This document shows positions 5,979-12,873 of a stretch of DNA of 49,312 nt, piece by piece. Made by a program: the position numbers and the translations under genes. The notes under the pieces are model-generated. The model ran no database searches, was not told the origin of the DNA, and saw nothing but the letters and a program-made list of their open reading frames with translations. Positions within the stretch are counted from its first letter, which is position 1. Every line of letters begins with the position of its first letter. Source of the DNA: Cryomorphaceae bacterium (GTDB lineage: Bacteria; Bacteroidota; Bacteroidia; Flavobacteriales; Flavobacteriaceae); assembly GCA_018646865.1 (NCBI GenBank), contig JABGTW010000026.1, positions 1 to 49,312 on the forward strand, read 5' to 3'.

Positions 5979-6066
5979 TTAAAATATTTTTCTAATATAA
6001 TTCATTTATATATTGTTTCACGAAAAAAAAAAAATTGTAGATTTGTTAGAATCAAAAATTACCAAG

Positions 6067-8255: not shown

Positions 8256-8317
8256 GTATTTGTTGATAATTTTATTAAAAAAAAAATATCATTTAAGAAT
8301 TAATTTTTCTCAATCTC

Positions 8318-8331: not shown

Positions 8332-9393
8332 ATGAATAATTCCTCAATTTCATCAGCTTCTGAATATAGACCGAAAGATTTCAGTGATATGATAGGTCAA
8401 GATGCTATTGTCAAGACCCTTTTAAATGCTATAAAAAATGATCATATTCCACAAGCACTTCTTTTTTGTGGACCAAGAGGTGTAGGTAAAACTTCATGCG
8501 CAAGAATTCTAGCGAAAAAAATAAATGATTTAGAGGAGAATTTTGAGTATAATATTTTTGAACTTGATGCAGCATCTAATAATTCTGTTGAGGATATTAG
8601 AAACATTACTGATCAAATTCGTATACCTCCTCAAATTGGAAAATATAAAGTCTACATAATAGATGAGGTTCATATGCTTTCAAATGCTGCTTTTAACGCC
8701 TTCTTAAAATCATTAGAAGAGCCTCCAAAACATGTTGTATTTATACTAGCAACAACAGAAAAAAATAAAATTATACCAACAATTTTATCTAGATGTCAAA
8801 TTTATGACTTTAAAAAAGTTGACATCTCTTCAATAACCAAACTATTGGCCAGTATTTGTAAAGACAAAAAAATTAAGTTTGATGAAAATTCATTATCATT
8901 AATTTCTGAAAAATCTGATGGCTCAATAAGGGACGCCTTATCTATGTTTGATAGATTAGTTAGTTTTACTGATTCTAATTTGACAATTACTGATGTAACT
9001 TTAAATCTAAATGTTTTAGATTATGAAACATATTTCGATTTATCAAGCTTAATAAAAAATAAAGACATACCAGGAATTCTAACTAATTACAATGACATAT
9101 TTAGTCGTGGATTTGATGATGTTAATTTTTTAAGTGGATTATCAAGACATCTAAGGGAAATCTTGATTAGTAAAATTGGTTCTTCAGATAAAATATCTGA
9201 TTTAAAAAATGAATTAAGCATAAAATATTTAGAACACTCTAATGACTTTCTAGATGAAGACCTTATTTTAATGATTCAAATTATTAATGACTCTCTTATT
9301 AATTATCAAAAAATTAATGATAAAAGAATTCATATTGAGCTTTGCTTGATGAGACTAGCTTCAATAGATAGTATTAAAAAAAAAAATCCTTAA
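8332..9393 (+). CDS. dnaX: DNA polymerase III gamma subunit, zero-frame product of dnaX
   Basis: Read without slippage the gene gives a 353-aa protein that stops two codons after the A11 run (codons AAA AAA AAA AAT CCT TAA). It keeps the whole AAA+ ATPase and most of the collar domain needed for the clamp-loader pentamer but lacks the tau-specific part, just as gamma does in E. coli and Thermus. The start ATG 8332 is chosen over an in-frame TTG at 8260 because conserved sequence (SEYRPKDFSDMIGQ) begins soon after it and a promoter box lies between the two. Confidence 0.7.
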   Translation: MNNSSISSASEYRPKDFSDMIGQDAIVKTLLNAIKNDHIPQALLFCGPRGVGKTSCARILAKKINDLEENFEYNIFELDAASNNSVEDIRNITDQIRIPPQIGKYKVYIIDEVHMLSNAAFNAFLKSLEEPPKHVVFILATTEKNKIIPTILSRCQIYDFKKVDISSITKLLASICKDKKIKFDENSLSLISEKSDGSIRDALSMFDRLVSFTDSNLTITDVTLNLNVLDYETYFDLSSLIKNKDIPGILTNYNDIFSRGFDDVNFLSGLSRHLREILISKIGSSDKISDLKNELSIKYLEHSNDFLDEDLILMIQIINDSLINYQKINDKRIHIELCLMRLASIDSIKKKNP

Positions 9394-9944
9394 TTAAAAC
9401 TTCAGAATTAAAAAATCTAAAAAAAGAGGAAGTTTTTGAGTTAGGAAATCAAGAAATTATCACTAATAACAAGCTGTTTACTCCTCCACCCACTAAAGAT
9501 GTCTCCTCTCTTTCTTTAGCAAGCTTAAATTTTAAAAAATCTACTGAAGATAAACAGAATGAAGAACTAGACAACCTACCTTCTGATGACTTTACAGAGA
9601 ATGATTTTCAAATTGTTTGGAAAAAATTCTGTGATATAGAAAAAAATAAAGGCAATAATAATATTCTTTCTTTATTGAACATGAATAATCCTTCAATTAA
9701 TAATAATATCATTACTATATCTACAATTAATAAGATGAATTTTAAGGAAGTTAAAGGATATAGAAATAGAATCCAGACTTTTATATCAAAAGAACTTAAT
9801 AATTATTTAATTTCAGTAGATGTTAAATTATCAGAAGAGAATACAAAAAAATCTTATCTAGATAGTAAAGATAAACTAGATATCTTAATAAAAAATAATC
9901 CTGACATAGAGAAGTTAATTGATGACTTAAAGTTAAGAATTTAA
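8332..9944 (+). CDS. dnaX: DNA polymerase III tau subunit, full length by slippage at an A11 run
   Basis: Tau is the clamp-loader ATPase that also ties the replication fork together. The zero frame ends early at 9393, but shifting by -1 (or adding one A) at the A11 run 9376-9386 joins it to a frame open from 9387 to the TAA at 9942-9944. That gives about 537 aa: the AAA+ domain with GPRGVGKTS near residue 47, IIDEVHML and the ATTEKNKIIPTILSRCQIYDF segment, the clamp-loader collar domain, a linker rich in charged residues, and a C-terminal domain ending near IEKLIDDLKLRI, typical of Bacteroidota tau. The four-cysteine zinc module seen in E. coli is absent. Whether the shift is real recoding or an A12 misread as A11 cannot be decided here. 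The end overlaps the ppx gene by 12 bases. Confidence 0.85.
9376..9393 (+). promoter_or_regulatory. A11 slippery run and gamma stop codon in dnaX
   Basis: Eleven consecutive A (9376-9386) are followed by TCCTTAA, which puts a zero-frame TAA at 9391-9393. The run contains the heptamer A AAA AAA in the reading frame needed for -1 ribosomal slippage, and it is also long enough for RNA polymerase slippage. I see no strong hairpin just downstream, which favours transcriptional slippage over structure-stimulated frameshifting. Confidence 0.7.
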
Positions 9945-10829
9945 CTTACTGGCATTATTTTCATAGAATATTTCATTCACCATTCCATCTACTAGACCTA
10001 ACTTGGGTACAAACATTTTATTAGCTTGAACCGACTCCATAGTTGTTATAAATATTTTTAAAGCAGGAATTATTACATCAGCTCTATCTGGATTTAAATC
10101 AAACTTTACCATTCTGTCATGGTAAGTATGTTTTAATAGAGTGTTAGATAAATCTTTCAATGAAAGATAAGAAATAGGTTTACCAGATTTAGAGTCCGTC
10201 ATTGATTGAATTTTATTTATGTTACCTCCTGTTGCAAATAATTTAATTTTATCATCATTATCTATGTTAGATCTTAACCAGTCTCTTATATCCTTTATCA
10301 TAGAATCGTCAACTAAATTATTGAGGAGTCTAACAGTTCCTATTTTAAATGATTTAGATATTTTTTCCTTACCTCTTCTCAAAATTGAATACTCAGTACT
10401 ACCTCCACCTACATCAACATATAAGAAGGTTTTATTGAAACCTATTTTCTCAAGGGAATTTCCTTTAGAAATAATTGTCGCTTCTTTAAGACCAGTAATA
10501 AGTTCAATTTTTAAATCAGTTTTTTCCTTAACAATTGATATGACTTCTTTTGAATTTGATGATTCTCTTAGGGCTGATGTAGCATAAATCTGATAATCTT
10601 CAACTTCATGTACTTTCATTATATACTTAAATGAAAGAATAGCATTTGTGAGTAAATTAATTTTTGAATTTGATATGATTCCACTTTTAAATGAGTCTTC
10701 ACCAAGTCTTATAGGTAATCTTAGATACAAGTTTTTTTGAAAAATATATTTATCCCCTGAAGGAATAACAAAACAAATAAGCATTCTTATAGCATTAGAA
10801 CCAATATCAATAGCAGCAATTTTTTTCAA
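9933..10829 (-). CDS. Ppx/GppA family phosphatase (exopolyphosphatase)
   Basis: An ASKHA-fold phosphatase that shortens polyphosphate or hydrolyses pppGpp. The 298-aa protein contains only the two ATPase-like domains, without the C-terminal HD domain of long Ppx enzymes. The phosphate loop AAIDIGSNAIRMLI is at residues 4-17, YATSALRES near 88, VDVGGGSTEYSI near 140, and the ATGGNINKI loop near 195. It starts one base after the end of ppk1 and is the last gene of that operon, so an antagonistic role to the polyphosphate kinase is likely. Its end overlaps the tau end of dnaX. Confidence 0.9.
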   Translation of the reverse strand: MKKIAAIDIGSNAIRMLICFVIPSGDKYIFQKNLYLRLPIRLGEDSFKSGIISNSKINLLTNAILSFKYIMKVHEVEDYQIYATSALRESSNSKEVISIVKEKTDLKIELITGLKEATIISKGNSLEKIGFNKTFLYVDVGGGSTEYSILRRGKEKISKSFKIGTVRLLNNLVDDSMIKDIRDWLRSNIDNDDKIKLFATGGNINKIQSMTDSKSGKPISYLSLKDLSNTLLKHTYHDRMVKFDLNPDRADVIIPALKIFITTMESVQANKMFVPKLGLVDGMVNEIFYENNASKLNS

Positions 10830-10830
10830 A

Positions 10831-12873
10831 TTAATCTAAATTATTTTTAAAATAACTATAAGTATCCAATTGAGATCTTATAATTTTCTTTGAATTGATT
10901 ATAAATTCATTTTGAGAATTATGATTGATCAATCTAGATTTTACATTGTCATTATCATTAATATAAAGTGTCTCTAGAATTTGGTTTTTAAGGTCATCTT
11001 GATAAATTGGACAAGCTACTTCTACACGTTTCTCAATATTTCTTGTCATTAAATCAGCAGAAGATATATAAATTTTCATATCGCCTGCATTTTCAAAAAC
11101 ATAAACTCTAGAGTGTTCAAGATATTTATCTACAACACTTTTAACCTCAATATTTTCACTAAGTCCAATTTTATCAGGAATCAAACAACATATACCTCTT
11201 ATTAATAATTTTATTTTGACACCTGATTTACTAGCCTCATATAGTTTATCCACAAACTTATAACTAGTAAAACTGTTTAATTTAAGAATGATATGACCTT
11301 TTAATCCTTTCTTCACATTTAAAATTTCGTTATCTATAAGTTCTAAAAGTTTATTAGAAGTCTGATGAGGAGAAACAATTAGATGTTTATAATCATATAT
11401 TTTATAATTAGCTTTAAGGAAATCAAAAACTTTATGAACTTCTTTTAATATTTTTTGATTTGATGTGAATAATGTAAAATCTGAGTATATTTTAGCTGTA
11501 GACTCATTAAAATTTCCAGTACTAACAAATCCATAATATCTTTTTTTATTCCCCTTAAATCTTTCTATTAAACAAATTTTTGAATGAACCTTTAAACCTT
11601 TTACTCTAAAAATTATATCAACTCCTGCTGCTTTTAACTGTTGGGATACCTTTATATTATTTTCTTCATCAAATCTAGCTTGAAGTTCTATCTGAACTAA
11701 AACTTTTTTACCATTTTTAGCAGCATTAATTAGAGAGCTAATAACGTTTGATTTTTTTGAAAGTCTATATAAGGTGATTTTAATTGACTTAACAGTAGGA
11801 TCAATTGCTGATTGCTTTAAAACTGAAACCAAATAAGAGAATGAATGATATGGTGTGTACATCAAGAAATCTTTTTCTTCTATTTGATCAAGAAGGTTTG
11901 ATTCAATTTTTAAATCTTTTATATCTAATGATTTTTCTTTTGGATATAACAAATCAGATCTTCCTAAGTCTGGAAAATTCATATAATCACTTCTATGATG
12001 ATATTTACCTCCGGGTATTAAACTATCATAGGAAGTAATCTTAATTTTTTTGATTAAATACTTTAGAGTAGAACTAGAGATATTTTTATCATAAACAAGT
12101 CTAACAGGATTGCTTATTTTTCTCTTATTGACATATTCTTGAATTTTTTTAATGTAACTCTTAGATATATCTATATCATCTATATCAAACTCAGCATCTC
12201 TAGTTATTTTTAGCATATTTGCTTCAATGTGAGAATAATTAAAAAAACTAAAAATAATATCAAGATGATATCTAATTATGTCATCAATAAGCATTATATA
12301 TTGTCTATCATTTTTTTTAGGCAAAACTACAAATCTGCTTATATCTCTTGGAATCTCAACTAAAGCATAGATATTATCTTTTTCTATAAGTTTTATATTA
12401 GTTATTAGAAAAGCCTTGTTGTCTTTAAAATCATGAAGTTTATTATTCGATAATATAACAGTAACTAAGGCTGGACTTATTTTTTGAATAAAATAATCCT
12501 TTAAAAATTCTTTATGAGATTCTGGCACCTCTTTTTCATTAATAAAAACGATATTTTCTTTTTTTAATGATTTCTCAATTGATTCTAATATTAATGAGCT
12601 TTCTGATTGAAGACTAATGACTTTTGATGTTATTTTATCAAGGAGCTGTTTAGCAGCAATATTATCTTTATTATTTTTAATACTTGGTTTAGCATCAGCT
12701 ATTCTTTTGACAGTTGCATACCTAACTTGAAAAAATTCATCTAAATTATTTGAAAAAATCCCTATAAACCTCAATCTCTCAAGGATTGGGACTTCTTTAT
12801 TAGAAGCTTCTTGGAGAACTCTTGCATTAAAATCTAGCCAACTTAGCTCTCTATTTATATATTTAGGTTCCAC
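10831..12873 (-). CDS. ppk1: Polyphosphate kinase 1
   Basis: Reversibly transfers the ATP gamma-phosphate to polyphosphate. The 680-aa protein opens with YINRELSWLDFNARVLQEA, the standard N-terminal motif, followed by the NLDEFF(Q)VRYATVKR helix. The two phospholipase-D-like catalytic domains contain KSIKITLYRLSKKS near residue 360, the autophosphorylated histidine in LKVHSKICLIER near 430, and GFVSTGNFNESTA near 455. Translation starts at GTG 12871-12873, which overlaps the end of sixA by 11 bases; no ATG fits before the conserved motif. The setting with ppx and a SixA-type phosphatase suggests one unit for phosphate storage. Confidence 0.95.
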   Translation of the reverse strand: MEPKYINRELSWLDFNARVLQEASNKEVPILERLRFIGIFSNNLDEFFQVRYATVKRIADAKPSIKNNKDNIAAKQLLDKITSKVISLQSESSLILESIEKSLKKENIVFINEKEVPESHKEFLKDYFIQKISPALVTVILSNNKLHDFKDNKAFLITNIKLIEKDNIYALVEIPRDISRFVVLPKKNDRQYIMLIDDIIRYHLDIIFSFFNYSHIEANMLKITRDAEFDIDDIDISKSYIKKIQEYVNKRKISNPVRLVYDKNISSSTLKYLIKKIKITSYDSLIPGGKYHHRSDYMNFPDLGRSDLLYPKEKSLDIKDLKIESNLLDQIEEKDFLMYTPYHSFSYLVSVLKQSAIDPTVKSIKITLYRLSKKSNVISSLINAAKNGKKVLVQIELQARFDEENNIKVSQQLKAAGVDIIFRVKGLKVHSKICLIERFKGNKKRYYGFVSTGNFNESTAKIYSDFTLFTSNQKILKEVHKVFDFLKANYKIYDYKHLIVSPHQTSNKLLELIDNEILNVKKGLKGHIILKLNSFTSYKFVDKLYEASKSGVKIKLLIRGICCLIPDKIGLSENIEVKSVVDKYLEHSRVYVFENAGDMKIYISSADLMTRNIEKRVEVACPIYQDDLKNQILETLYINDNDNVKSRLINHNSQNEFIINSKKIIRSQLDTYSYFKNNLD

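Follow-up and report, generated by a model that had tools for sequence, protein, structure and literature searches.

An A11 run at the gamma/tau junction of dnaX in a Cryomorphaceae bacterium, a probable site of programmed transcriptional slippage with counterparts across its relatives

The dnaX gene of a Cryomorphaceae bacterium raises the question of how its longer product, tau, could be made at all. In the 49,312-nucleotide stretch of DNA analysed here (contig JABGTW010000026.1 of assembly GCA_018646865.1; hereafter, the window), the gene starts at an ATG and runs into eleven As with a T on either side. The zero-frame codons up to the gamma stop are ...AGT ATT AAA AAA AAA AAT CCT TAA, in which the run and the codon after it read KKKNP, and the tau-specific tail lies in the -1 frame (Table 1). 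A first-pass annotation made from the letters had described this run, the zero-frame stop with its 353-residue gamma and the open -1 frame of 185 codons, all of which agree with the sequence. It had also proposed that tau can be made only by slippage on the run.

Table 1. Positions of the dnaX features in the window.
Feature	Position	Strand	Basis or remark
dnaX gamma reading frame, AAA+ clamp loader part, 353 aa	8332..9393	+	stop 9391-9393; NCBIfam and Pfam matches
A11 slippery run, gamma/tau junction	9376..9386	+	sequence
gamma stop TAA, zero frame	9391..9393	+	sequence
second gamma terminator TAA, third (+1) frame	9395..9397	+	two codons past run
tau-specific tail, -1 frame, 185 codons and stop	9387..9944	+	PRK14971 match; no Pfam match

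The gamma part matched TIGR02397 dnaX_nterm (E=4.9e-108), PRK14971 (E=2.3e-136) and the Pfam families PF13177, PF22608 and PF12169. The tail alone matched PRK14971, the best-scoring full-length DnaX model, over positions 459-612 of 614, its last quarter (E=3.7e-15; 55.8 bits, below the whole-protein cut-off of 685), which bore out the tau-like C-terminus that the annotation had noticed; a search of the tail against Pfam gave no match. We take the gamma part and the tail to be one gene. Its tau stop codon (9942-9944) lies within a 12-base overlap (9933-9944) with the 3' end of a convergent ORF (9933-10829) that reads as exopolyphosphatase-like and adjoins a polyphosphate-kinase-like ORF (10831-12873). 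The four-Cys zinc module expected between the Walker A and DAAS motifs was missing from the DnaX of the window (8474-8575). Among 194 proteins with both flanking motifs, the interval held at most one Cys in 142 and four to six in 52; the example DnaX proteins without the module came from Flavobacteriales and one Bacteroidia MAG, and those with it from other orders.

When we changed the length of the run in silico, tau products of 536, 537 and 538 aa resulted from 9, 12 and 15 As, respectively, and the A12 product has the size of about 537 aa that had been predicted for tau. All other lengths between 8 and 16 As gave gamma products of 352-356 aa, because both non-tau frames close, one and two codons past the run. 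Transcripts with A10 or A13 would end in ...ILN at the TAA of the third frame. The zero-frame stop thus stands as a gamma terminator, as annotated, but not as the single one, since the third-frame TAA also ends gamma. The window gene is therefore gamma-nominal, that is, its DNA frame encodes gamma, and tau is not one continuous ORF, unlike in the Thermus layout.

Several known systems resemble this arrangement. Two-ORF dnaX genes whose tau is made by recoding were described by Antonov et al. 2013 (PMC3711429), whose set comprised 17 genes from 12 genera, 12 of them with a poly-A run (A10 in nine of these), and who proposed transcriptional realignment. The window shares their layout, with a zero-frame gamma stop after poly-A and then a -1 tau tail in the DNA; it differs in having A11 and apparently belongs to another lineage, with overlap possible within Flavobacteriales. 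In Thermus thermophilus, slippage in dnaX has been demonstrated experimentally (Larsen et al. 2000, cited via PMC1088944 and PMC5009743), whereas the window gene is known from its sequence alone. In both, the dnaX gene has an A run after which the two remaining frames soon stop, and the same two products are expected. However, the DNA frame of Thermus encodes tau and slippage on its A9 yields gamma, whereas the DNA frame of the window encodes gamma and slippage would yield tau. In E. coli, too, one dnaX gene gives gamma and tau, by -1 frameshifting (PMC3711429, PMC5009743), but at an A_AAA_AAG heptamer with a Shine-Dalgarno (SD)-like motif and a hairpin as stimulators; the window has neither the heptamer nor the stimulators. 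Blochmannia, too, has a dnaX frameshift inside a poly-A tract, and slippage is thought to correct it (PMC3017870). The Blochmannia site, however, is situated further downstream, in the part specific to tau, and one of the three species lacks it (PMC3017870), unlike the junction site of the window, which recurs in most relatives together with paired stops. Chance homopolymer damage, such as occurs in the symbionts of ants and aphids, was set aside as an explanation, given the recurrence of the run in most relatives and its pairing with stops.

The annotation had named as the competing explanation a true A12 misread as A11, which would leave one continuous tau frame. The assembly is a draft (82% complete, 83 contigs) and homopolymers are error-prone. 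Among same-genus genomes, 22 out of 25 gave a dnaX match (E<=1e-60). With the window counted, all 22 genes had A10-A12 at the junction, and 14 of them were gamma-nominal (seven with A10 and seven with A11). The remaining eight were tau-nominal (one with A10, six with A11 and one with A12). The A run and the out-of-frame region downstream of it were thus kept in many same-genus genes, and the relatives did not uniformly show A12 with an uninterrupted frame: 14 out of 22 were interrupted, none of these with A12. Thirteen same-genus genomes besides the window's were therefore interrupted in the same way, and a single miscount cannot account for this pattern because the 22 genomes are separate assemblies. 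The same layout also occurred in the named isolates Flavobacterium denitrificans, F. quisquiliarum and Chryseobacterium lathyri. A sequencing or assembly error is, in our judgement, very improbable.

To see how widely the run occurs, we surveyed loci from whole-genome searches, chosen extracted stretches and a scan of named genomes (best 80 matches); 40 survey loci were hand-picked from a longer list for spread over families. The 199 loci with a gamma match represented 198 distinct ones, of which 193, the window (L003) included, extended far enough past the run. L001 (the window dnaX repeated), L002 (a second AAA locus) and L121 (the same gene as L051) were dropped, as were L041, L145, L147, L152 and L158, which were too short after the run. 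Both features were assigned by rule and not by homology gene by gene: within a segment of fixed length beyond the conserved region, the longest series of As was taken as the run, and whichever frame stayed open longest after it was taken as that of tau.

By this rule, 177 out of 193 usable dnaX genes had A9-A12 at the junction: A9 in 11, A10 in 131, A11 in 34 and A12 in one, so that lengths centred on 10. Elsewhere in the same genes, runs of at least nine As occurred 14 times in 303,310 bases. Run length was bimodal, with A5 or less in 13 out of 193 genes and only three genes in between, namely L049 (A8, with the tail in -1), L047 (A7, with an A12 further downstream) and L141 (A6). Among the best 80 named matches, tau was out of frame in F. 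quisquiliarum, F. denitrificans, F. psychrotolerans, Halpernia humi and C. lathyri and in frame in Aquimarina mytili, Aequorivita viscosa and Pedobacter puniceum. The run was absent from 11 out of 20 loci ranked as Bacteroidales. We also drew 198 genomes from across the phylum, of which 196 gave a match. The 60 loci hand-picked from these for family spread and searched over a wider stretch (L229, L241 and L257 possibly being cut by contig ends) had at least nine As in 23 out of 24 cases within the same class and in 21 out of 36 cases in other classes.

Some loci stood apart. L133 (Bacteroidetes bacterium RUG13693) had no run, and its three frames closed within 18 codons of the examined point; perhaps this dnaX lacks a tau tail, or the anchor was placed wrongly. 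At L072 (G290), the open frame past the run was unusually long (439 codons). In the order survey, all 16 listed genomes of genus g57 in family f16 (about 0.6 Mb) lacked a dnaX match at E<=1e-70, as did 41 further genomes; members of g57 are perhaps reduced symbionts in which dnaX is divergent or lost.

Long A runs were also scarce in the assembly of the window as a whole. Its 1,303,786 bases contained four distinct runs of at least 11 As on both strands, the dnaX A11 included; five matches were listed, two of which fall inside one A12. The other three runs (window 6023-6034, an A12; L202; L206) each fall in the opening codons of a stop-to-stop open frame, shortly before an ATG that is likely to be its start. 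For the A12, however, the ORF list gives a TTG start ahead of the run instead of the ATG after it, so its position outside the gene is only probable. To judge from these three runs, long A runs look as if they were confined to leaders. An A10 run (8277-8286) sits a short way 5' of the dnaX start.

Slippage that inserts a variable number of As would be expected to go with early stops in both non-tau frames. In each of the 177 genes with the run, both of these frames had stopped by 16 codons after it; in 78% they had done so by five codons, compared with 14-15% at other positions in these genes. Where the run was missing (16 genes), the farther stop was 6-103 codons from the longest A stretch. 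In tau-nominal genes, stops within five codons were found in 85% (background, 35%) and 97% (background, 46%) for the two non-tau frames. When tau was in -1, the stop of the zero frame always lay within five codons (background, 35%) and that of the third frame did so in 69% versus 46%, a mild enrichment only. A -1 ribosomal shift would need just one of the two stops.

The direction of the offset also varied. Tau was in frame 0 in 101 out of 177 genes, which have the Thermus-like tau-nominal layout, in -1 in 70 and in +1 in six. We counted at least 26 frame changes on each of two trees, 24 of them between gamma- and tau-nominal states, and at least four within the genus of the window (in the genus tree of 25 genomes, 13 out of 22 inner branches were well supported). 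The six +1 genes, among which sequencing errors are possible, implied at least five changes between -1 and +1. Shuffled frame labels required 54-67 changes, as opposed to the 26 observed. Frame states are therefore clustered on the tree; they are inherited yet labile, and the DNA frame is not simply ignored. This clustering weakened a fully frame-blind model, which we had considered. Orthologues keep their direction in ribosomal shifting and are free to differ in transcriptional realignment (PMC3711429); the dnaX cluster in that paper is all -1, whereas we observed frame switching between close relatives. In E. coli and Buchnera, single-base insertions dominate at A/T runs and rise exponentially with run length (PMC5574713), and the excess of -1 over +1 fits such insertion-biased slippage. 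This excess alone is not decisive, because -1 ribosomal shifting fits it too.

A DNA-level switch was also weighed, in which replication slippage would mix cells with A11, making gamma only, and cells with A12, making tau, within one population. Long A runs are mutable, and run length changed at least six times among the 22 same-genus genes. However, run length is centred on 10 and frame state is inherited within clades. Moreover, tau is expected from knowledge of E. coli to be necessary for every cell. Phase variation of this kind is very unlikely.

The tail could alternatively be a relic, with tau lost, or a separate protein translated by internal initiation. Its dN/dS was 0.142-0.351 in ten pairs of gamma-nominal congeners and 0.225-0.373 in four pairs with the tail in frame 0 (pairs share species in both sets), and that of the gamma part was 0.04-0.11. 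The tail is thus under purifying selection in its shifted -1 frame, which speaks against decay. As for a start of its own, the tail of the window contains a TTG at 9675 (89 aa), and an ATG, GTG or TTG lay within 20 codons of the run in 15 out of 76 gamma-nominal genes. However, 73 out of 76 had no ATG within that distance, the median position of the first ATG past the run was 98 codons, and that ATG fell in the last 115 codons or was absent in 51 out of 76. By these counts, the tail is unlikely to be translated independently, and decay and internal initiation together seem to us highly unlikely explanations of the locus.

We also modelled the structure of the tail, using an alignment of the window and 52 out of 75 named tails. 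The last 151 residues were modelled by AF2 with a pLDDT of 86.2. Compared with PDB structures, the model had no match at E<=0.001; its best matches, DnaA domain I and DciA, were weak (E 0.06-0.3), and a tau-tail profile found nothing significant among PDB sequences (best E 0.041, DnaA). A KH-like fold is common to DnaA domain I, DciA and tau domain V, the last of which binds the alpha subunit of the polymerase.

The alternative that deserves the most weight is -1 ribosomal frameshifting, in which ribosomes on AAA AAA AAA would slip one base back on a uniform A11 mRNA. Tandem re-pairing in -1 is possible on the A_AAA_AAA within the run, and 70 out of 76 gamma-nominal genes have tau in that frame. 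A 2016 review treats the reversed dnaX layout, with tau made by shifting, as ribosomal and puts forward Chlorobium phaeobacteroides, whose stimulators resemble those of E. coli, as a candidate (PMC5009743). Signals of this kind were partly present in the survey. An SD-like tetramer lay within 20 nt upstream of the run in 78 out of 177 genes (background, 11%), often, by eye, as GATGGAG directly before it, and in one out of 22 genes in the genus of the window. Downstream RNA was slightly stable: over 60 nt, the mean z was -0.60 compared with -0.25 for the control (p 0.0025, a guide only, as kinship was ignored), and folding energies of -10 kcal/mol or lower occurred in 48 out of 177 genes, including 17 out of 70 with tau in -1. 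Three tau-nominal congeners reached -10.5 to -15.2 kcal/mol. RNA 3' of the run had values of -9.8 to -15.2 kcal/mol in the tau-nominal congeners L014-L017 and was less stable in the 14 gamma-nominal congeners (-1.1 to -7.0 kcal/mol).

In the window itself, however, we found no SD-like tetramer within 20 nt upstream of the run and no A_AAA_AAG heptamer; the run is followed by TCC, so that a T stands where E. coli has a G. The 60 nt downstream had a minimum free energy (MFE) of -4.9 kcal/mol (z -0.75), in keeping with the annotation's remark that a strong hairpin is lacking. Across the survey, the same site has tau in +1 in six genes and in frame 0 in 101, and a site of 7 nt would suffice for ribosomes, yet runs of 6-8 As occur in just the three intermediate genes named above, out of 193. 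Furthermore, ribosomes of Bacteroidia fail to recognise SD sequences (PMC9976891) and F. johnsoniae frameshifts poorly at prfB (PMC12421855). Ribosomal frameshifting is therefore an unlikely source of tau here, though clearly a stronger candidate than the other alternatives.

Taking these results together, we consider programmed transcriptional slippage (realignment) at the dnaX A11, Thermus-like with a reversed layout, the probable reading, at roughly four chances in five. It is favoured over ribosomal frameshifting because the offset direction varies among orthologues (0, -1 and +1), because the run is bimodal in length and stops are enriched in both non-tau frames, and because the window lacks an E. 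coli-like signal. The annotation's proposal stands in that polymerase slippage is the best supported route to tau; its "only" was too strong, since A_AAA_AAA permits a -1 ribosomal slip. RNA polymerase would lose register on the A11, mainly adding As. Transcripts with 11 As, and also those with 10, 13 or 14, would give gamma of about 353 aa, because the non-tau frames both stop within one or two codons, and transcripts with 12 As (or 9 or 15) would give tau of about 537 aa, whose tail would carry the C-terminal domain expected to bind polymerase. We infer that slippage occurs in the cell, in some ratio of products, and that both products are used. Two published statements count against this reading: in Buchnera, no transcription error restoring a frame was reported (PMC5574713), and slippage may be absent from AT-rich genomes in which A9 is not selected against (PMC1088944).

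More tentatively, and at somewhat less than even odds, the dnaX junction of Bacteroidota may be nearly frame-tolerant. About ten As with stops in both other frames would yield gamma and tau whatever the DNA frame, so that this essential replication gene would survive single-base indels; the frame would have flipped dozens of times, and insertion-biased slippage would have set the lasting offsets (-1 common; +1 rare and scattered). The two-ORF dnaX layout was published in 2013, in what is the direct precedent among the papers that we consulted (PMC3711429), and Thermus slippage before that (PMC1088944, PMC5009743). The broad conservation of the run and the repeated flipping of the DNA frame were not found in the open-licence literature that we searched, and we claim no priority for them.

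Read naively, the window gene is a truncated DnaX followed by a stray ORF, though it very probably encodes both subunits, and the same misreading is to be expected for the other gamma-nominal genes of the survey. Polymerase slippage rather than ribosomal slippage may be used in this class because its ribosomes ignore SD sequences (PMC9976891). With at least 26 changes of the DNA frame counted around a slippery run that was itself preserved, the survey makes it possible to test an old question: does the cell need gamma, and if so, how much of it relative to tau?
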